From positions 1-24,926 of the IMG/VR virus record IMGVR_UViG_3300017987_000342: 24,926 nt of DNA. The stretch is one strand, 5' to 3'. Below, piece by piece: positions 96-19,265 of the stretch (its first letter is position 1; every line of letters starts with the position of its first letter). The position numbers were made by a program, and so were the translations under genes. Under the pieces are notes generated by a model. The model did not search any database. It worked only from the letters and a program-made list of their open reading frames with translations, and had not been told where the DNA came from. Origin of the DNA: a virus.

Positions 96-866
96 ATGTC
101 AATCCGCGGTATCACCGTTTCCGTCGAGTACGATGACCTTCTGGAGATCACTCTCCACCGGGCCGCGCAGGTACTGGACAAGATCGTGGTCGTGACAACG
201 CCGGAGGACCACGCAACGCTGGCGATCGTGGCCCGGGTGCCGAATGCCGTGGTTTACTGCACGGATGCCTTCTACCGCGACGGAGCCGCGTTCAACAAAG
301 GCCGAGCCATCGAGGAAGGTCTTGACTTCCTCGGTCGCCGTGGTTGGATTCTTTCGTTTGACGCCGACATCGTGCTTCCGGCAGACTTCCCGCCGGAGCA
401 CCAACGGTACAAGCGTGTGCTCTACGCACCGTGGCGGCGAATCCTTGACGACCCGACGCAGCACGGCCACTACGCGGATCCGGCAACCTGGCGGAAACTT
501 CCCCGCTACGAAGAGACCTGGGAATTCGCCGGGGCGTGCCTCCTCTTCCATGCCGACGCTCCGCACCTCGGGGAGCCGCCGTGGTTCGGTGTCACATGGG
601 AGGCCGCGCAGGGCTACGATACGGAGTTCTTTTTCAAATGGCCCGAGAAGCATCGCAAGCGGTGGGACTACGACGTCCTTCACTTGGGGCGACATACCCA
701 GAACTGGTACGGCCGCCGGACGCCCAAACTCGACGGTACGATCCCCGAGAAAGCGGCCGAACGCGCCGCCCGCATGGACCGACTTCACGTCGACCGGCAA
801 CTGACAAGAGCCAAGTACCCTTATCCCAACGAGCACATCCAATGCGCGTCTTCGGAATCGGACTAG
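96..866 (+). CDS. glycosyltransferase-like protein (GT-A type, DxD)
   Basis: A 256-residue protein. A nucleotide-sugar-binding pattern is visible: strand IVVVTT near residues 30-35, the NKGRAIEEGL helix at 67-76, then ILSFDADIVLP with a DAD (DxD) metal-binding motif at 89-91. This order is typical of GT-A glycosyltransferases related to family 2, which transfer a sugar from a nucleotide-sugar donor in the cytoplasm. The start at 96 (MSIRG) is preferred over an upstream in-frame ATG at 30, which would overlap the previous gene. The 3' end overlaps the next gene by 25 bases. Acceptor and donor sugars cannot be read from the sequence. It is the first complete gene of the modification operon. Confidence 0.7.
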   Translation: MSIRGITVSVEYDDLLEITLHRAAQVLDKIVVVTTPEDHATLAIVARVPNAVVYCTDAFYRDGAAFNKGRAIEEGLDFLGRRGWILSFDADIVLPADFPPEHQRYKRVLYAPWRRILDDPTQHGHYADPATWRKLPRYEETWEFAGACLLFHADAPHLGEPPWFGVTWEAAQGYDTEFFFKWPEKHRKRWDYDVLHLGRHTQNWYGRRTPKLDGTIPEKAAERAARMDRLHVDRQLTRAKYPYPNEHIQCASSESD

Positions 867-1393
867 GTCGGACGGGAACCCAGTCGCTGGCCTCGGCGCT
901 GCGCACGTTGGGGTTTCGCGTGGTACACTACCCGGCCGATCTGGCGGAGATTGACAAGCACGACGCCTGCCTGGATATCACGGTTGCGAAGCGGTTCCGC
1001 TTTCTCGATGCGATCTACCCAGGCAGCAAGTTCATTCTCACGACGCGGGAAATGGAGTCATGGTTGCGAAGCTGCCAGTGGCACTACAGCGTGCCATGGC
1101 GTGAGGCGGCACCCGGGGATATACCGCTTGAGCAGAAGATGCTTGCCGAGAATGACTTTGACATGTACGGCACCTGGCGCTTCGATGAGGAGCACTTCCG
1201 CCACGCCAAGTGGAGACACGAATCGGGCGTGCGATTCCATTTCGCAGATCGGCAGGACGATCTTCTGACGCTGGACATCACGACCACGCCGGCTGAAGAC
1301 CTATGGCGCGCGTTGGTCGCGTTCCTCGATGTGCCAGTGGTCGATTTTGGCCAGCCGTTCCCGTGGGAAAACCGATCGGAGCCTGTTAGGTGA
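842..1393 (+). CDS. sulfotransferase family protein (short, Sulfotransfer_4-like)
   Basis: A 183-residue protein beginning MRVFGIGLGRTGTQSL. Residues 6-16 match the 5'-phosphosulfate-binding loop of PAPS-dependent sulfotransferases, in the GxGRTGTxSL version used by the Sulfotransfer_4 group. A second signature, KFILTTREMESWLRS at about 63-77, corresponds to the 3'-phosphate-binding segment. The family moves a sulfate group from PAPS to a hydroxyl or amine; here the acceptor is unknown, though neighbouring glycosyltransferases suggest a sugar. The ATG at 842 is chosen because the PAPS loop starts almost at once; the gene overlaps the previous one by 25 bases and the next by 4 (GTGA). Slightly shorter than typical family members. 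Confidence 0.75.
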   Translation: MRVFGIGLGRTGTQSLASALRTLGFRVVHYPADLAEIDKHDACLDITVAKRFRFLDAIYPGSKFILTTREMESWLRSCQWHYSVPWREAAPGDIPLEQKMLAENDFDMYGTWRFDEEHFRHAKWRHESGVRFHFADRQDDLLTLDITTTPAEDLWRALVAFLDVPVVDFGQPFPWENRSEPVR

Positions 1394-2166
1394 AGCTCTC
1401 CATCCTCATCGCGGCCCTCACGTCTCGACAGACAATGCTCGATCAGCTTCTGTCTGACTTGGCATCCCAGGCGGCCCCATTCGGTGAGGAGGTGGAGATT
1501 CTGGTCGAGCAGGACGCCGGGCAGATGGCCAGCGGCGAAAAACGCAACCGGCTTATCCGACGCTCGCAAGGGCGGTACTTCGCATTCGTGGACGATGACG
1601 ACACGGTGTCAGCCGAGTACGTCAAGACGCTTGTCGAGGCGACGGACTTGGACCGGCACGTGATCAGCTTTGACTTGGAGCGACTTGCCCCGGGCCGACC
1701 CCGGGAGGTTCACTCGTTCTCTATCTGGCACAAGGATCGACAGCGGCTTGACAAGCGCCTGATCGGGATGAGGGCCAACCACCTCTGCGCGTGGCGGCGC
1801 GACATCGGGACACTGATTTCCTTCCCGTCGATCCTTGGCTACAACGATGACGTGTTCTGGTACGACCCGCTTCTGGCCAGCGGTCGTGTGAAGACCGAGC
1901 ATCACGTCGACGCGGTTCTCTACCGGTACAAGTATTCGCCCGGAAAGAGCCGGAACCAGCTTGCCCATCAGCTTATCCTCACCAGAGAGTGGTCGAACGG
2001 CGGCGTACCATGCTGGGATCTCGATGGTCGGCTGTTCGTTGCGGTGATGGGGCAAGCGCACTATGATGGCCTTGATTACGTGCAAGCCCGGGATGGTAAC
2101 GGGACAGTCTACACGTTTGGTCGGGATGGACTGCCAACACCGTACTTTATTGCTCGCATGAAATAG
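1390..2166 (+). CDS. family 2 glycosyltransferase
   Basis: A 258-residue protein starting with GTG inside a GTGA overlap with the preceding stop codon, a sign of translational coupling. The N-terminus MKLSILIAALTSR is the usual first strand of GT2 enzymes. GEKRNRLIRRSQG (49-61) followed by YFAFVDDDD (63-71) matches the GT2 pattern in which the acidic cluster binds metal and the nucleotide-sugar diphosphate. The later segment LGYNDDVFWYDPLL could hold the catalytic acid region. It should act in the cytoplasm, adding a sugar to an unknown acceptor. It is sandwiched between two sulfotransferases, which supports a sulfated-glycan pathway. Confidence 0.8.
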   Translation: MKLSILIAALTSRQTMLDQLLSDLASQAAPFGEEVEILVEQDAGQMASGEKRNRLIRRSQGRYFAFVDDDDTVSAEYVKTLVEATDLDRHVISFDLERLAPGRPREVHSFSIWHKDRQRLDKRLIGMRANHLCAWRRDIGTLISFPSILGYNDDVFWYDPLLASGRVKTEHHVDAVLYRYKYSPGKSRNQLAHQLILTREWSNGGVPCWDLDGRLFVAVMGQAHYDGLDYVQARDGNGTVYTFGRDGLPTPYFIARMK

Positions 2167-2177
2167 GGAATAGCAAC

Positions 2178-2795
2178 GTGTGGATCAGCCGACAAGCTGG
2201 TTTTCTGTTTTGCCACAATCCGCGGACGGCTGGCAGTTCGATGATCGACGCGCTGCGTGAGGTCCATGGTGATTTTGAGCCTTATTCCGACGACGACGAA
2301 GCGCCCTACCACGCGAAGGATCACAGCACCGATCGGCCACCGAACAGCGACGGACTTCCTATCGTCGGCTTCGTGCGCAACCCTTTTGCCCGCGAACTCT
2401 CGCTCTACTTGTGGCAGGCGTTCATTGGACGCAACGATGTGCGCCACCCATCCGGCCTTAGCATGACCGCGGCGCTGTTGTCGTTCGAGCAATACATTGC
2501 ATTTCGCGTCAACCAGCGATTGGATGACGCGGTCAAGCGCGTGGTCGGGACGCAATCCGAGTTCTACGGCGACCTCACGCCACACCGTCTCTTGCGGTAT
2601 GAGGATTTGCCCGACGCATTCACTTCGCTTTCGTTTGTCCCGGAGGGGACTGCGTTGGAAGTGAATCAGACCACGCGCATGGGCCCGGTCAATTTGCGAA
2701 CCTTTTACACGCCGGCCGCCCGAGTGTTGGTTGCCCACTATGCCGCCGCGGATTTTGAGCGATTCGGCTACGATCCACAGGAGATACCAGAGTGA
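2178..2795 (+). CDS. sulfotransferase family protein (Sulfotransfer_2-like)
   Basis: A 205-residue protein with a GTG start at 2178. FLFCHNPRTAGSSMIDAL (9-26) is the PAPS 5'-phosphosulfate loop in the form seen in carbohydrate sulfotransferases (HxPKTAGTS). IVGFVRNPFARELSLYLW (62-79) carries the 3'-phosphate-binding R, S and Y residues. RYEDL and the C-terminal ADFERFGYDP are also family-like. It differs clearly from the sulfotransferase at 842-1393, so the operon carries two distinct sulfotransferase types, presumably for two positions or acceptors. Its stop overlaps the next start as GTGA. The start codon lacks a strong ribosome binding site. Confidence 0.8.
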   Translation: MWISRQAGFLFCHNPRTAGSSMIDALREVHGDFEPYSDDDEAPYHAKDHSTDRPPNSDGLPIVGFVRNPFARELSLYLWQAFIGRNDVRHPSGLSMTAALLSFEQYIAFRVNQRLDDAVKRVVGTQSEFYGDLTPHRLLRYEDLPDAFTSLSFVPEGTALEVNQTTRMGPVNLRTFYTPAARVLVAHYAAADFERFGYDPQEIPE

Positions 2796-3565
2796 ACCCG
2801 ACATGGTTGGAATACACCTTCAAAAGCTCGGAGTTTCCGCGATACTTCCAGCGGACAAACCGGACGCGAGCCGAACTTATTGAAAGCGTTAGGGCAAACA
2901 ATCCGCCACACGTTGCTCGGTTTGGAGACGGCGAGATTCTCTGCTGCCTCGGTTGGTTGGAACGGAACAACTGTGACGGCCATGATTACTCGCCGGCTCT
3001 TGCCGAGGCGTTGGCCGGGGCTGTGCGGACGTTCGTCCAGACGCCGAACCTCTGGCTTGGTAATTGGGGATGGTGGCCGTTGGCTGTCTGGGTTCACGGA
3101 TTGTGTGATCAGTGGGGCGGCCAAACGGACTGGTGTGACCACGGGCTGTTCATGCATTTCAAGGATCAGGACAATAGCGCGGTTCGCGATCTGTATCTCG
3201 CGATTCGCGATTGTCCGCGGCGTAAGGTGTTGGTTGGACCCGATCTGCTGCAACCGGCGATGCACTTTCTACAGGCATCCCAGTTCGTGCAAGTGCCGCC
3301 GAACAATGGGTGGGATCAGTTTCCGCGTGTCCGGGACGAGCTTCTCGGAATCGTGCGTCCGAGTGACTTGGTCCTGCTGGTCTATGGGATGCCGGCCAAG
3401 CCGCTGATGGCTGAGGTGATTCGGCACGAACCATTGGCCAGATGCTTCGACATCGGCACTGGTCTTGACCCTCTTGTCGGCCGACAGACCAGACCACACC
3501 AGCCCGACTCGGCGGTGATGGGCGAACTCTACGGAGACGTGCTCAATGGCATCCTACAGTCGTGA
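2792..3565 (+). CDS. putative GT-D fold glycosyltransferase (RFGDGE motif)
   Basis: A 257-residue protein with a GTG start coupled to the previous gene (GTGA). HVARFGDGEIL at 40-50 contains the RFGDGE motif that marks the GT-D glycosyltransferase fold (formerly DUF1792), where the D-G-E residues form a DxE metal site. The sequence also has a tryptophan-rich segment (NLWLGNWGWWPLAVW) and a C-terminal DIGTGLDPLVGRQTRPHQ, comparable to the acceptor-side end of that family. Function in other bacteria: addition of glucose to an O-linked glycan on adhesins. Here the acceptor is unknown. The 3' end overlaps the next gene by 20 bases. Confidence 0.65.
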   Translation: MNPTWLEYTFKSSEFPRYFQRTNRTRAELIESVRANNPPHVARFGDGEILCCLGWLERNNCDGHDYSPALAEALAGAVRTFVQTPNLWLGNWGWWPLAVWVHGLCDQWGGQTDWCDHGLFMHFKDQDNSAVRDLYLAIRDCPRRKVLVGPDLLQPAMHFLQASQFVQVPPNNGWDQFPRVRDELLGIVRPSDLVLLVYGMPAKPLMAEVIRHEPLARCFDIGTGLDPLVGRQTRPHQPDSAVMGELYGDVLNGILQS

Positions 3566-4181
3566 TGACGTGATCACTCATGCCCAAGCTGCCGTTGACG
3601 AAGCGGACAAGGCAACGCAGTTTTCCGGGCCCATGGTCGAGGGAATGACATCAGTCAAGATTCGCGTACTCTTGCAAGCGCTATGCCGACTCCATGGGGC
3701 TCACTATCTCGAAATTGGCGTGTGGAAGGGAGCGACGCTCCTGGCCGCCACCCACGATAGCCCGCTTGTCTTGGCCACCGTGATTGACAACTGGTCCACA
3801 TTTGGTGGGCCGCATGATGAGTTTCTGGCGAACCTGTTTGCAGTCGAAGACTACTTACCGCCGGTCGAAGTCATCAATGCGGATTGCTGGACAATCACCC
3901 CGGACCGAATCGCGCCGCCCGTCGACGTGTACTTCTACGACGGCTGCCATCATACCGAAGACCAGCGACGGGCAATGTCGCACTTCTGGCCCGTCCTTTC
4001 CAAGCCGGCAATCGTGGTAGTCGACGATTGGGACGACCAAAACTATGACGTTCCCGGCGGCACCCGCGCCGGACTGGCCGACGTAGGCGCTACGATCCTT
4101 GCTGAATGGGAACGGCATACCGCTTTCCAAGCTGATGCCGAGGGCTGGTGGAACGGAGTGTTTGTGGCTGTAGTCGCATGA
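3546..4181 (+). CDS. class I SAM-dependent methyltransferase
   Basis: A 211-residue protein. HYLEIGVWKGATLL (53-66) is the SAM-binding motif I (E/DxGxxxG). VDVYFYDGCHHTEDQ (126-140) resembles the conserved DGxHxYE block of Methyltransf_24-type enzymes, and IVVVDDWDDQ (156-165) supplies a further acidic strand end where a metal or substrate may bind. The group methylates sugars and small molecules; the context of glycosyl- and sulfotransferases favours a sugar O-methyltransferase. The start at 3546 lies inside the previous gene (20-base overlap). The next gene follows after 12 bases. Confidence 0.72.
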   Translation: MASYSRDDVITHAQAAVDEADKATQFSGPMVEGMTSVKIRVLLQALCRLHGAHYLEIGVWKGATLLAATHDSPLVLATVIDNWSTFGGPHDEFLANLFAVEDYLPPVEVINADCWTITPDRIAPPVDVYFYDGCHHTEDQRRAMSHFWPVLSKPAIVVVDDWDDQNYDVPGGTRAGLADVGATILAEWERHTAFQADAEGWWNGVFVAVVA

Positions 4182-4193
4182 AAGGTTTACACT

Positions 4194-4796
4194 ATGCAGG
4201 AATCGCACTTGTTTACCGTCGACACGTATCCGGCAACTGACATCGTGCAACGTCCGCCTGGCTGGTGCGGAAACCAGCGAGGCACGGAGTTCTCGCGATT
4301 CGTCGATCGGCTTGTGGAGTACGAATGCCACTCCCTACTATTCATCGGGGCTGGCAACGGCGGCAACCAGTGGGCCATTGCTCACCGGTTCCGGCAACTC
4401 GGCTGGGAATCAACGATGCGGGTGTTTGACATACGTGCCAACCTCGGGCTACTGATGACATTCGATCTGCTTGCCCACCAGTGTCCGGAGTGCCGCATCC
4501 GGTTGACTCTGGCCGACAGCCAACACTTGAAGCCGGAGGACCTCGGCCAACACGATGCCGCTTTCGTCGATGGTGACCATGGGTACCCCCAGACACTTCA
4601 TGATGTGCGGATCTGTGACGCCGTGGTGAAACACTTCGTTGGGGTCCACGACATCAGCAACCTCGGGGGCCGCGAGAGAATGCTGCCTTGCGGCGAGGCA
4701 TGGCAGGAACTGAAGAAAGGTCGGCGTGTCGAAGAGTTCCTGACTGATTGGCAGATGGGAATCGGGATCCTGTACAAGGAAGAGGCAAAACCATGA
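4194..4796 (+). CDS. class I SAM-dependent methyltransferase-like protein
   Basis: A 200-residue protein. SLLFIGAGNGGNQWAIA (47-63) is a glycine-rich motif I with FIGAGNGG in place of the usual D/E-x-G-x-G. FDIRANLG near 78-85 may be motif II, and AAFVDGDHGYPQTLHDVR (122-139) is the DGDHxY block shared with Methyltransf_24 and CmcI-like enzymes. HDIS at 152-155 matches the later metal-linked HD pair of that group. It is not closely similar to the methyltransferase just upstream, so the two are probably not a recent duplication. It ends in an ATGA overlap with the radical SAM gene. Confidence 0.65.
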   Translation: MQESHLFTVDTYPATDIVQRPPGWCGNQRGTEFSRFVDRLVEYECHSLLFIGAGNGGNQWAIAHRFRQLGWESTMRVFDIRANLGLLMTFDLLAHQCPECRIRLTLADSQHLKPEDLGQHDAAFVDGDHGYPQTLHDVRICDAVVKHFVGVHDISNLGGRERMLPCGEAWQELKKGRRVEEFLTDWQMGIGILYKEEAKP

Positions 4797-5620
4797 TCCC
4801 TCCCCGAGAGCAATGGTGTGTCCAGATCGAAGTGACCAACGCCTGCCCCCGCGCGTGCTCGAACTGCACGCGCATGGTCGCCCACGTGCGGGAGCGGTTC
4901 TACATGACGCCGGACGACTTCAGGACGGCTTGCCGGGCCCTCGCCGACTTCCCCCGGGAGTCGACGCCGAACCCGAACGCCGGGGCCCCGCCCGGGCGCA
5001 AGTGCGTCGGCATGATGGGCGGGGAACCGCAAAGCCATCCGCAGTTCCGCGAACTGGTGGAGATCATGCAACGGGAGATTCCCCGACGGCGCGACCGTGG
5101 GCTGTGGACCGGGCAAGACCTCGATCCAGCAGTGGCCCGGGTCTTCGGCTACGTCAACCTCAACAAGCACAACTCCAATTGCGTTCACCAGCCCGTGCTC
5201 GTCGGCATCCAGGAAGTGATTCGAGACGAGGCAGAAATGTGGCGGCTCATCGAAGCCTGCCCGCTCCAACGAGCGTGGTCAAGTTCGATAACCCCAAAAG
5301 GGTTCTTCTTCTGTGAAGTGGCCGCCGCAATGGACATCGTGTTCGATGGGCCCGGTGGCATCCCCGTCACGCCCGGCTGTTGGGCCCACGACCTGGCGGA
5401 CTACCGCGACCAGATCGAGCGTTGGTGCCCGCGGTGCGGCGTCTGTCTGCCGCTTGAGGGCCGGCGTGACGCAGAGGGCGTCGACGATGTGAGCCATGCG
5501 AACGCGACCGCACTTCGGATGATGGCCAGCCCGCGGATCCGCAAGGGCCGGTTCAAGGTGTTCGATCCTGAGAGTTGGCAGCCGCCGGAGGATTGGGAGC
5601 CGCTGAGGTACCTGCGGTGA
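4793..5620 (+). CDS. radical SAM protein with possible auxiliary cluster
   Basis: A 275-residue protein. CPRACSNC at 18-25 gives the CxxxCxxC radical SAM iron-sulfur ligands (C18, C22, C25), preceded by IEVTNAC as in typical members, and GGEP at 76-79 is the SAM amino-group motif. The C-terminal half has GFFFCEVAAA (C174), C196, and CPRCGVC (C212, C215, C218), which together look like a SPASM or twitch-type auxiliary cluster. Such enzymes cleave SAM to a deoxyadenosyl radical and modify peptides or small molecules. The start at 4793 overlaps the previous stop (ATGA); an in-frame ATG at 4748 is rejected for that reason. Substrate unknown. Ends only 2 bases from a convergent gene. Confidence 0.8.
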   Translation: MIPPREQWCVQIEVTNACPRACSNCTRMVAHVRERFYMTPDDFRTACRALADFPRESTPNPNAGAPPGRKCVGMMGGEPQSHPQFRELVEIMQREIPRRRDRGLWTGQDLDPAVARVFGYVNLNKHNSNCVHQPVLVGIQEVIRDEAEMWRLIEACPLQRAWSSSITPKGFFFCEVAAAMDIVFDGPGGIPVTPGCWAHDLADYRDQIERWCPRCGVCLPLEGRRDAEGVDDVSHANATALRMMASPRIRKGRFKVFDPESWQPPEDWEPLRYLR

Positions 5621-5622
5621 GA

Positions 5623-5718
5623 TCAGCCGCGAGATGAGTACCATTTCGCCCACGCTGCCGCAAGCCACATCGCCGCGACCATGCCAAGGGCAATCAATAG
5701 ATCGTATCCGATATTCAC
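5623..5718 (-). CDS. 31-residue single-pass membrane peptide
   Basis: A GTG start at 5718-5716 overlaps the TGA stop of the prepilin-like gene (GTGA on the minus strand), the same coupling style as in the operon opposite. The peptide begins MNIGYDLLIALG, is almost entirely hydrophobic (about residues 6-24: a transmembrane helix rich in Leu, Ala, Met, Trp) and ends with the polar, basic AKWYSSRG. No family recognised. It could be a small membrane partner of the prepilin-like protein, or a holin-like peptide if this region is phage. The coding call rests on the overlap, the clean frame and the hydrophobic pattern. It converges with the radical SAM gene, leaving no room for a terminator. Confidence 0.45.
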   Translation of the reverse strand: MNIGYDLLIALGMVAAMWLAAAWAKWYSSRG

Positions 5719-6470
5719 GGCGTCCACTTTCGCGAGAGCCCAACGACCCCATCGAAGTCAATCAGTTGACACGATGAGACCGCGATCGGGAAGTCGCCGC
5801 CCCTGAGATCGACCTGCCCGTCCAGCGGGTCGGTAATCGTCTGCCACCAACCGAAGTGCCTACCGAGCCCACCGGGATCATCCCAGACAAGCATCACGTA
5901 CTTGTCCTGTTCAAGGATCGTTTCCGGCGGAAGCTGAAGCAGGACGCCCCCGGGATAGGACCACTCGACAGTGGCGTCGATCACGCGCTCGTCAAACGTC
6001 CGCTTCCGGCAGGCGATCGCTGTCACCTCGCCTTCGCATACGCTGGCGAACCAGGTGTATTCGCCCCTGTGCCCGTAGGCTTCCGGCCGTTCCTTGGAAT
6101 AGTCGCATTGCAAATCATCCGTCGACGTGTAGTCGGGCGGCAGGATGCCATCGACCGCGACACGCGGCACCCCGGCAATTACCCCAGGCAGTCCTCCGTT
6201 GACAATGCCGTCTGGGTCAAGGATTACGTTTGAGCCGATTGGCGTCTTCTCGTCTCCGTCGTTATCGAGCCAGCGATCTTGATCGAGCCAGCCGCGGACG
6301 AACAGATCCGCAATCGCGGCGCTCGCGCAGTCGGTTCCCCGCTCCCGTTGCTGCGTCTTGGCCACGATCTGGCCAGCGAAAGTGATCAAGCCCGCGATTC
6401 CTAGGAGCCCGAATAGCAGGACTCCGCAGGCCAACAAGACCTCCAGCAGCGTGTAAGCTCGGCGTCTCAT
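5715..6470 (-). CDS. prepilin-like protein with type IV pilin N-terminus
   Basis: A 251-residue protein starting at 6470, 7 bases after a GGGAGGG ribosome binding site. MRRRA/YTLLEVLL is a prepilin peptidase site: basic leader, small residue at -1 (Ala instead of the usual Gly), and Glu at +5. A long hydrophobic helix follows (about 6-38), as in PilV/PilE-like minor pilins. The globular part has LDPDGIVNG, a VPRVAV segment and acidic loops; the DPxG...PR arrangement resembles, from memory, planctomycete pilus-associated proteins. It would be processed at the membrane and assembled into a pilus or secretion pseudopilus. It is isolated from other pilus genes and lies on the opposite strand to everything else here. 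Confidence 0.7.
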   Translation of the reverse strand: MRRRAYTLLEVLLACGVLLFGLLGIAGLITFAGQIVAKTQQRERGTDCASAAIADLFVRGWLDQDRWLDNDGDEKTPIGSNVILDPDGIVNGGLPGVIAGVPRVAVDGILPPDYTSTDDLQCDYSKERPEAYGHRGEYTWFASVCEGEVTAIACRKRTFDERVIDATVEWSYPGGVLLQLPPETILEQDKYVMLVWDDPGGLGRHFGWWQTITDPLDGQVDLRGGDFPIAVSSCQLIDFDGVVGLSRKWTP

Positions 6471-6614
6471 CAGATTGCCCTCCCGGTTCGTGTGATGCCG
6501 CCCGACGCCCGCGGCCGGGCGATCTGCCATCAGCCTACCCCCAGTACGAATCGGCGTCCAGCGTCGTTCTGGGGCGTCTGACGGGATTCTTCGCAACTTG
6601 CCTATTTTGAAGGT
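6471..6614. other. non-coding gap upstream of the prepilin-like gene
   Basis: No convincing gene. The 5' flank of the prepilin-like gene contains the GGGAGGG ribosome binding site (minus strand, 6477-6483) and an inverted repeat CGCCCG...CGGGCG near 6498-6520 that could form a hairpin on either strand. I see no clear minus-strand promoter. The segment runs into the tRNA-like sequence at 6615. Confidence 0.4.
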
Positions 6615-17687: not shown

Positions 17688-18401
17688 ATGGAGACGGAAA
17701 CTGTTTGGAAGCCAGAGGATCTAAAAACCGATTACTCTGGACATTTGATTATTGAATGCGAAGTGGACCTACCTGCGATGTGCTTGCGTGTAAAAGGCAA
17801 GTGCATCTGTCGAAAGAAAGCAATTGTACGGTCCATCGAGGCCGGCTGGTCCATCGAGGCCGGCGAGTTCATCGAGGCCGGCGAGTTCATCAAGGCCGGC
17901 GGGTCCATCGAGGCCGGCGAGTTCATCAAGGCCGGCGGGTTCATCAAGGCCGGCGAGTTCATCGAGGCCGGCGGGTCCATCGAGGCCGGCGAGTTCATCA
18001 AGGCCGGCGGGTCCATCGAGGCCGGCGAGTTCATCAAGGCCGGCGAGTTCATCAAGGCCGGCGGGTCCATCAAGGCCGGCGAGTTCGTGTTATCGTTGAT
18101 GTTCGAGGTTTCGTGTGCCGGCTTGCGTGTATCTTTACTCCCATTTTGGAGGTCGTTCTGGGCTGCGATGCCGCCGTTGCAGAAGTGGCGAACAGCAATT
18201 CTCTCTCGTGATTGCTGCTGGGGTGATTTGCGGCTTCTCGCGACAGTTCACGAACAGCGAGACATCGTCGCTTGGGAGGGCTGGCACCCGATCCTACGCG
18301 CACACTTGGAGATGTTTTTCGGTCTGCGTTCTGAGGTGCCTGGGTCTGAGCTTAGGGTTCATGCCCCAGAGACAACGGACGCGCCGACAACGGAAGACTG
18401 A
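17688..18401 (+). CDS. protein with 14 hexapeptide repeats (IxAGxx)
   Basis: A 237-residue protein with ribosome binding site GAAGGA. Residues 1-48 form a non-repeated head (METETVWKPEDLKTD, cysteines at 32, 39 and 41). Residues 49-132 are 14 exact six-residue units of the form [SF]-I-[EK]-A-G-[EGW], expected to fold as a regular beta solenoid, with Ile inward and Gly at turns. The C-terminal 105 residues are hydrophobic and tryptophan-rich (FWRSFWAAMPPL, WEGWHP), then acidic. Related I-x-A-G repeats appear in phage and bacterial hypothetical proteins, but I know of no function. The repeat part could bind a surface, a polymer or DNA by mimicry. Confidence 0.65.
   Translation: METETVWKPEDLKTDYSGHLIIECEVDLPAMCLRVKGKCICRKKAIVRSIEAGWSIEAGEFIEAGEFIKAGGSIEAGEFIKAGGFIKAGEFIEAGGSIEAGEFIKAGGSIEAGEFIKAGEFIKAGGSIKAGEFVLSLMFEVSCAGLRVSLLPFWRSFWAAMPPLQKWRTAILSRDCCWGDLRLLATVHEQRDIVAWEGWHPILRAHLEMFFGLRSEVPGSELRVHAPETTDAPTTED
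17832..18083 (+). repeat. 14 tandem 18-bp repeats
   Basis: Each 18-base unit encodes six residues and contains GGCCGGC. Units differ mainly at three positions: TCC or TTC, GAG or AAG (Glu/Lys), and GAG or GGG (Glu/Gly), giving a patchwork rather than identical copies. Length 252 bases, no stop codon in any forward frame. Copy number is likely to vary by slippage or recombination, always in frame. Confidence 0.9.

Positions 18402-18427: not shown

Positions 18428-19265
<838 letters not shown>

Follow-up and report, generated by a model that had tools for sequence, protein, structure and literature searches.

A recurrent pair of a radical SAM enzyme and a putative glycosyltransferase at the core of a modular, probable glycan cassette of uncultivated tailed phages

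A compact operon of eight genes lies at the left end of the IMG/VR virus record IMGVR_UViG_3300017987_000342, whose 24,926 bases are the stretch of DNA analysed here (the window). Its products are two sulfotransferases, one glycosyltransferase of the GT2 family and two more that are likely glycosyltransferases, a pair of methyltransferases of the Methyltransf_24 type and one radical S-adenosylmethionine (SAM) protein. The operon is not a lone oddity: cassettes of its type, with an unusual radical core, recur. Recurrent co-location and two natural fusions show that the radical SAM protein (RSAM_A) and a GT-A-like protein (GT1) are genetically tied and form this core, surrounded by a variable set of other glycosyltransferases, methyltransferases and sometimes sulfotransferases. 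Phage-encoded glycan modification is already known as a kind, and the RSAM_A–GT1 core is the new result. Phage glycosyltransferases are common, but what they act on and which chemistry they perform is for the most part guesswork; the recurrence of this core, and its fusion in two phages, singles out a concrete enzyme pair. The probable role of the eight-gene cassette is to attach an unusual sugar chain to the virus particle (or to the host surface). We give an even chance to the fuller proposal: a modular phage glycan cassette, of which this operon is one version, is carried beside the virion-structure genes of uncultivated tailed phages, some at least of Planctomycetota, and has a virion protein as its acceptor.

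RSAM_A and GT1 are genetically linked

A single-protein scan with the RSAM_A of the window retrieved two relatives (54-59% identity), both on phage contigs with glycosyltransferase, methyltransferase and sulfotransferase neighbours and a GT1 homologue. Alignment scans with RSAM_A raised the number of loci to eight, a scan using just GT1 retrieved 28 IMG/VR loci, the majority with RSAM_A, and two divergent RSAM_A subfamilies used as queries gave 29 and 19 loci. After dereplication, in which contigs with shared DNA at 90% identity or above were merged, RSAM_A was carried by 49 lineages: the window, 47 other viral contigs and one prophage in a bacterial metagenome-assembled genome (MAG). Identity to the window copy goes down to ~29%, and the family is phage-enriched.

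GT1 was found at most 4.5 kb away on the same strand in 40 of the 49 RSAM_A lineages, and in 39 of the 44 whose downstream sequence spans 4 kb or more; as the lineages are related, these and the following pair counts are not independent trials. RSAM_A precedes GT1 in all but one of the paired lineages (39/40). Leaving aside the window and eleven lineages first fetched through GT1, the pair was present in 28 of 37. Conversely, RSAM_A was carried by 11 of the 16 lineages fetched by GT1 alone, and in a twelfth (L029) a radical SAM protein of another family overlaps the start of GT1. Two lineages carry natural fusions. In L057, one 587-residue frame comprises a complete RSAM_A followed by GT1, and in L014, whose contig begins within RSAM_A, the frame runs into GT1 with no intervening start codon. 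These fusions suggest that the two proteins act on one substrate or in sequence. The original prediction had taken homologues that are always found scattered as evidence against its reading. The RSAM_A–GT1 core does not behave in this way, whereas the sulfotransferases, the GT-D-like protein and individual methyltransferases do vary between relatives. Two successive sulfotransferase-like genes, recognized by eye, were seen downstream of a tandem GT1 pair in L026 (12289-13769).

GT1 (96..866, 256 aa) is a putative glycosyltransferase. Residues invariant among 20 members include a DxD motif (D89 and D91), F59, K68, G69 and an H.G/W.G motif (H196, G198, W204, G206). Its only Pfam match is sub-threshold (Glyco_tranf_2_4, E 0.025) and no PHROG match was obtained. 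Profile–profile comparisons with GT2 and GT9 families were not significant, though the FNK and DAD motifs line up in the correct order. The GT-A label given in the original prediction is kept as tentative.

RSAM_A resembles Twitch-domain dehydrogenases

RSAM_A (4793..5620, 275 aa) falls below the Pfam Radical_SAM cut-off alone (E 0.0013), and its assignment is secured by the family alignment, a structural model and a fold search. The core cluster motif C18-x3-C22-x2-C25 was invariant in 20/20 members spanning it, the GG of the GG(E/N)P-type SAM-binding motif in 21/21, and C156-x17-C174-x37-C212-x2-C215 in 21/21 members spanning that stretch; no invariant cysteine beyond these seven was detected among the aligned members (up to 21). 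Three core and four C-terminal cysteines point to a Twitch domain, in which the radical SAM cluster is accompanied by a single auxiliary cluster with all its ligands, and RSAM_A is accordingly predicted to bind a single auxiliary Fe-S cluster through four cysteines. The protein had been described as SPASM-like. Its radical SAM nature was borne out, while the SPASM type was ruled out, as it needs a seven-cysteine motif and two auxiliary clusters (motif as in PMC6231123) and only four C-terminal cysteines are invariant.

An AlphaFold model built from an 18-sequence alignment (pLDDT 92.3, pTM 0.91) replaced a poor earlier model from 7 sequences (pLDDT 58). Foldseek searches with this model retrieved SpeY first (E 5.6e-9, TM 0.54) and then BtrN (3.3e-5, TM 0.41), with the peptide enzymes SkfB and SuiB as the next folds. 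The 18-member profile likewise matched BtrN (1.6e-4) and SpeY (4.8e-4) best, and the top viral match in BFVD was to a remotely similar radical SAM protein from an uncultured phage (5e-5). SpeY and BtrN are the Twitch dehydrogenases of spectinomycin and butirosin biosynthesis. RSAM_A shares with them the C-x3-C-x2-C core, the four-cysteine single auxiliary cluster and the overall fold, but only ~15% identity; it is phage-borne and coupled or fused to a GT-A-like protein, whereas they are found in aminoglycoside clusters. BtrN performs the two-electron oxidation of 2-deoxy-scyllo-inosamine, with the auxiliary cluster as the likely electron acceptor (PMC9012708), and function in this radical SAM subfamily is hard to predict from sequence (PMC6231123). 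Given that SpeY and BtrN are nearest in both fold and sequence, oxidation of a sugar alcohol is the most economical guess for the reaction of RSAM_A.

Alternatively, RSAM_A might act on a peptide or virion residue, as anaerobic sulfatase-maturating and sactipeptide enzymes do, which GT1 would then glycosylate. SkfB and SuiB, as the next best folds, fit such a role, and the two RSAM_A–GT1 fusions would be in keeping with two activities that modify one macromolecule in turn. However, SpeY and BtrN, structurally the nearest relatives, have small sugar-like molecules as substrates, and RSAM_A has no N-terminal RRE peptide-binding domain, since the protein has 275 residues and its core begins at residue 8. 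In addition, no recurrent small precursor-like gene was present among the clusters found in at least four lineages, open reading frames (ORFs) under 45 aa not being called. We consider peptide modification quite unlikely.

Composition of the cassette and its place among phage genes

Genes in the related loci were called with a home-made codon-usage caller that is partly wrong (it chose the opposite strand in L012 and L020), so homology matches were taken from six-frame searches; some neighbour gene names were assigned by eye. A methyltransferase cluster was present in 26 of the 49 RSAM_A neighbourhoods, a GT-B-like cluster in 23/49 and the GT2 cluster of the window in 7/49. The modules of L001, L007, L009 and L012 add a second radical SAM protein, an FkbM-type methyltransferase and Methyltransf_24. 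Sulfotransferases are optional, with Sulfotransfer_4 in 2/38 records and phrog_3347 in 3/38, besides other sulfotransferase-like genes in L008, L013 and L093; the window thus holds a sulfation-rich version of a common cassette. The second radical SAM family, RSAM_B, which occurs with the FkbM methyltransferase, is encoded at L001:5354-6157, L007:3186-3953, L009:13200-13964 and L012:12221-12961, and weak RSAM_B-like matches occur in Planctomycetota chromosomes too (L046, L047).

Wherever neighbours were readable, the cassette lay among structural genes (terminase, portal, capsid or tail) and on their strand. It lies between terminase and portal in L001, L008 and L009, directly before portal in L007, L011, L013 and L014, between capsid and connector genes in L032-L037, and after tail genes in L002, L010, L021, L023 and L024, in the last three before replication genes. 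The link between the operon and the phage genes of the window, originally called unproven, is now supported by this recurrence of the RSAM_A and GT1 families on the same strand among structural genes in dozens of uncultivated phages. To the right of the operon, the window encodes RecE, RecT, a helicase, a DNA methyltransferase, a replication initiator and the terminase large subunit, which identifies it as a fragment of a tailed phage. Its order (module, early genes, then terminase and portal) would fit the arrangement after tail and before replication genes, provided that the genes to the left of base 1 are tail genes.

It could be argued that unrelated metabolic genes have gathered where the genome tolerates insertions, between its late and early genes, without sharing a pathway. 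Accessory genes do differ widely among relatives, and neither the GT-D-like protein nor the Sulfotransfer_4 protein has phage relatives in INPHARED. Nevertheless, the operon is tightly coupled in translation, and the RSAM_A–GT1 pairing is repeated across divergent phages and fused in two of them, which makes such a chance assembly very unlikely.

Further proteins were found near cassettes. Cysteine-rich proteins are encoded 3' of tail genes and shortly upstream of the cassette in two phages very different in G+C (L002:6073-7476 and L010:5297-6493); they are possible targets of the cassette. A beta-lactamase-fold protein adjoins the phage cassette at L010:15055-16755 (PF00144, 2e-15). Its N-terminus, RKLLFEGLEVRTLLSA, is a signature similar to those of planctomycete surface proteins.

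Distribution in cultured phages and bacterial genomes

No match to the RSAM–GT core was found in 50,697 deposited phage records. In tblastn searches of INPHARED, which includes mycobacteriophages, there was no match to the RSAM_A of the window or of L024, to the L024 GT1 (the one GT1 query), or to the GT-D-like protein and the two sulfotransferases of the window. Few phages have been cultured on hosts such as Planctomycetota. No description of the module was found in the open-licence PMC literature.

An RSAM_A alignment pattern scan of 84,980 species genomes returned no match, and chromosomal relatives were therefore sought by profile in 392 Planctomycetota genomes. The genome-wide GT1 pattern scan returned one locus, a prophage in a Phycisphaerae MAG with the order GT9, GT-B, methyltransferase, RSAM_A, GT1, followed by terminase, portal and capsid genes. 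Among the 392 genomes, GT1 was present in this MAG alone, within the prophage, and convincing RSAM_A matches in it and three others. Weak matches in three Planctomycetota (G055, G108, G140) fell on the RSAM_B side and were not counted as RSAM_A. One Planctomycetota chromosome encodes a 1,061 aa fusion of RSAM_A with TPR repeats and a C-terminus that looks glycosyltransferase-like by eye (L052:8831-12016), near other sugar-modification genes. On another Planctomycetota contig, an RSAM_A relative (L053:3773-7310, - strand) lies between a Wzm/Wzt-like ABC exporter and a glycosyltransferase, both named by eye. This locus, of the ABC-transporter-dependent polysaccharide type, resembles the cassette in placing the relative next to a glycosyltransferase, but it is chromosomal, has an exporter and lacks both GT1 and phage genes. 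The search of phage and planctomycete genomes for the same gene order, proposed with the original prediction, thus yielded phage relatives with structural genes and a few chromosomal RSAM_A relatives with polysaccharide export or glycosyltransferase genes.

These chromosomal relatives favour another possibility, namely that the cassette alters lipopolysaccharide, capsule or another surface glycan of the host, leading to superinfection exclusion or receptor masking. The polysaccharide pyruvyl transferase in the L012 module points the same way, as do the hypervariable regions of pelagimyophages. According to PMC7029224, these regions of uncultivated phages likewise hold variable glycosyltransferases and radical SAM cassettes by tail genes, and are read as modifying lipopolysaccharide O-chains. 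They belong to other phages, however, and neither a sulfotransferase nor a conserved RSAM–GT unit is reported in the passages of that paper that were consulted. Gtr-type serotype conversion relies on a membrane flippase and a bactoprenol glucosyltransferase. Neither a GtrA/GtrB-type flippase nor a bactoprenol transferase is present among the eight operon proteins, since none has a membrane segment (maximum 19-residue hydropathy 1.35). The modules also share a strand with structural genes, rather than forming a separate early or lysogenic unit. Host-surface modification, the strongest of the alternatives, is on balance somewhat unlikely.

Proposed pathway and acceptor

We favour a virion protein as the target for three reasons: the cassette lies with structural genes, flippases are lacking, and there is a precedent in mycobacteriophages (PMC11256854). 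Glycans occur on the major capsid proteins of mycobacteriophages Che8 and Rita (Freeman et al. 2023, via PMC11256854), and phage glycosyltransferases are thought to act on virion proteins there. The relatives of the cassette likewise encode glycosyltransferases together with virion genes. The cassette differs from the mycobacteriophage systems in its radical SAM core and sulfotransferases, and its glycan is a predicted one.

Late in infection, GT1, GT2 and the GT-D-like protein would build a short glycan from host nucleotide sugars, presumably in the cytoplasm given the lack of membrane segments. RSAM_A, acting like SpeY and BtrN, would take a hydrogen atom off a sugar carbon and pass the second electron to the auxiliary 4Fe-4S cluster, to give a keto-sugar or, less likely, an epimer. 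Methyltransferases and sulfotransferases dependent on 3'-phosphoadenosine 5'-phosphosulfate (PAPS) may then cap the chain. Transfer to a capsid or tail protein, which would change the particle surface, is the least secure step. Of the sulfated, methylated glycan originally proposed, the idea of a cassette that makes or modifies a glycan has held up, and the target may be virion, host surface or small molecule. More specifically, it is possible, though doubtful, that the cassette represents a new phage pathway: a sugar on a virion-bound glycan would be oxidized by a Twitch radical SAM enzyme that either works alongside a dedicated glycosyltransferase or is fused to it.

Several points weigh against the proposal of a sugar-oxidizing cassette directed at the virion. 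The window alone has the pair reversed, with GT1 at the start of the operon and RSAM_A at its end, and it ends at the module, so that whatever precedes the operon lies outside the contig. In nine RSAM_A lineages no GT1 was detected, and five of these nine have ample flanking sequence. GT1 itself is a weakly supported glycosyltransferase, given its sub-threshold family matches and non-significant profile comparison with GT2-type families. The similarity of RSAM_A to SpeY is remote, with a modest TM-score (0.54), and the peptide-modifying Twitch/SPASM enzymes SkfB (1.8e-4) and SuiB (3.7e-4) match as well. Finally, the acceptor protein is hypothetical.

Hypermodification of DNA is another known activity of phage glycosyltransferases (Pyle et al. 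2024, cited in PMC12619734), and the glycosyltransferases and methyltransferases of the cassette could decorate hydroxymethylated bases of phage DNA. A thymidylate-synthase-like gene, possibly a hydroxymethylase, was found in 7/38 carrier records. Yet this gene is absent from the window (other hydroxylase families were not searched) and from the long records G002 (57 kb), G399 (54 kb), G406 (83 kb), G412 (70 kb) and G414 (104 kb), and the module lies among late rather than DNA-metabolism genes. Moreover, we know of no place for sulfotransferases in DNA hypermodification pathways. DNA as the target is extremely improbable.

If a sugar on a virion-bound glycan is indeed oxidized in this way, the particle would gain a hypervariable, possibly reactive coat of keto-sugars that differ in their methyl and sulfate caps, and this would be the first known radical chemistry on the glycan of a viral particle. 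Should RSAM_A oxidize sugars, radical chemistry would enter viral glycobiology. In the variable methyltransferases and sulfotransferases one could then read a record of phage–host conflict over surface sugars.

Operon layout and the remaining enzymes

The eight ORFs, described from the outset as coupled by short overlaps, were all confirmed on the + strand (96-5620), together with their junctions. These are, in order, a 25-base overlap (842-866), GTGA (1390-1393), an 11-base gap, GTGA (2792-2795), a 20-base overlap (3546-3565), a 12-base gap and ATGA (4793-4796). The family assignments also stood for both sulfotransferase types, GT2, the methyltransferases and the radical SAM protein. Support is firm for the two sulfotransferases, GT2, the first methyltransferase and RSAM_A (through relatives), moderate for the second methyltransferase and weak for GT1 and the GT-D-like protein.

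ST4 (842..1393, 183 aa) is predicted to be a PAPS-dependent sulfotransferase of the Sulfotransfer_4 family (Pfam 2e-22, above cut-off). It aligns with the SgdX2 structure (1.2e-5) across both the P-loop-like GLGRTGTQSL and the downstream R-x-x-x-x-W-x-x-S/R stretch, so that the Pfam match and this alignment cover the 5'-phosphosulfate loop and the 3'-phosphate motif of PAPS-type enzymes. The GT2-family glycosyltransferase (1390..2166, 258 aa) has a DDDD motif and matches Glycos_transf_2 (8e-8) and the phage glycosyltransferase phrog_8858 (5.6e-31); copies 32-47% identical were found in L001, L002 and L008. ST2 (2178..2795, 205 aa), a galactose-3-O-sulfotransferase-like protein, matches phrog_3347 (2.4e-8) and, below cut-off, Sulfotransfer_2 (0.0086), with a PRTAGSSM motif seen by eye. 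Its GTG start is backed by alignment to the 38% identical copy in the L001 module.

The putative GT-D-like glycosyltransferase (2792..3565, 257 aa) has a match below cut-off (E 0.0099) and an RFGDGE motif recognized by eye, and the label is tentative. No relative was found in viral contigs (single-protein scan), INPHARED phages or the PDB. MT1 (3546..4181, 211 aa) resembles SAM-dependent O-methyltransferases of the Methyltransf_24 type (Pfam 3.2e-10; phrog_1458 2e-17), and MT2 (4194..4796, 200 aa) is a second Methyltransf_24-like protein (Pfam 4.6e-4, below cut-off).

Other features of the window

Rfam and tRNA searches of the window returned no match. The closest phage relative found was L003 (5.4 kb), whose terminase is 66% identical. 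A terminase 43% identical to that of the window is present in one Planctomycetota genome, which weakly suggests that phylum as the host; no strong RSAM_A match was found in the same genome. Between the cassette and the early genes lies the sole convincing minus-strand gene of the fragment (5715-6473, - strand), which encodes a prepilin-like protein with the N-terminal methylation motif RRRAYTLLEVLLACG (N_methyl E 0.0089) and a hydrophobic helix. An 18/54-bp tandem repeat (17834-18086) within ORF 17688-18401 encodes SIEAGEFIKAGG-type repeats, and the protein had no family match in NCBIfam. A second repeat, AACCAG x11 (18855-18920), encodes a Pro-Glu-rich stretch of the replication-initiator-like protein.

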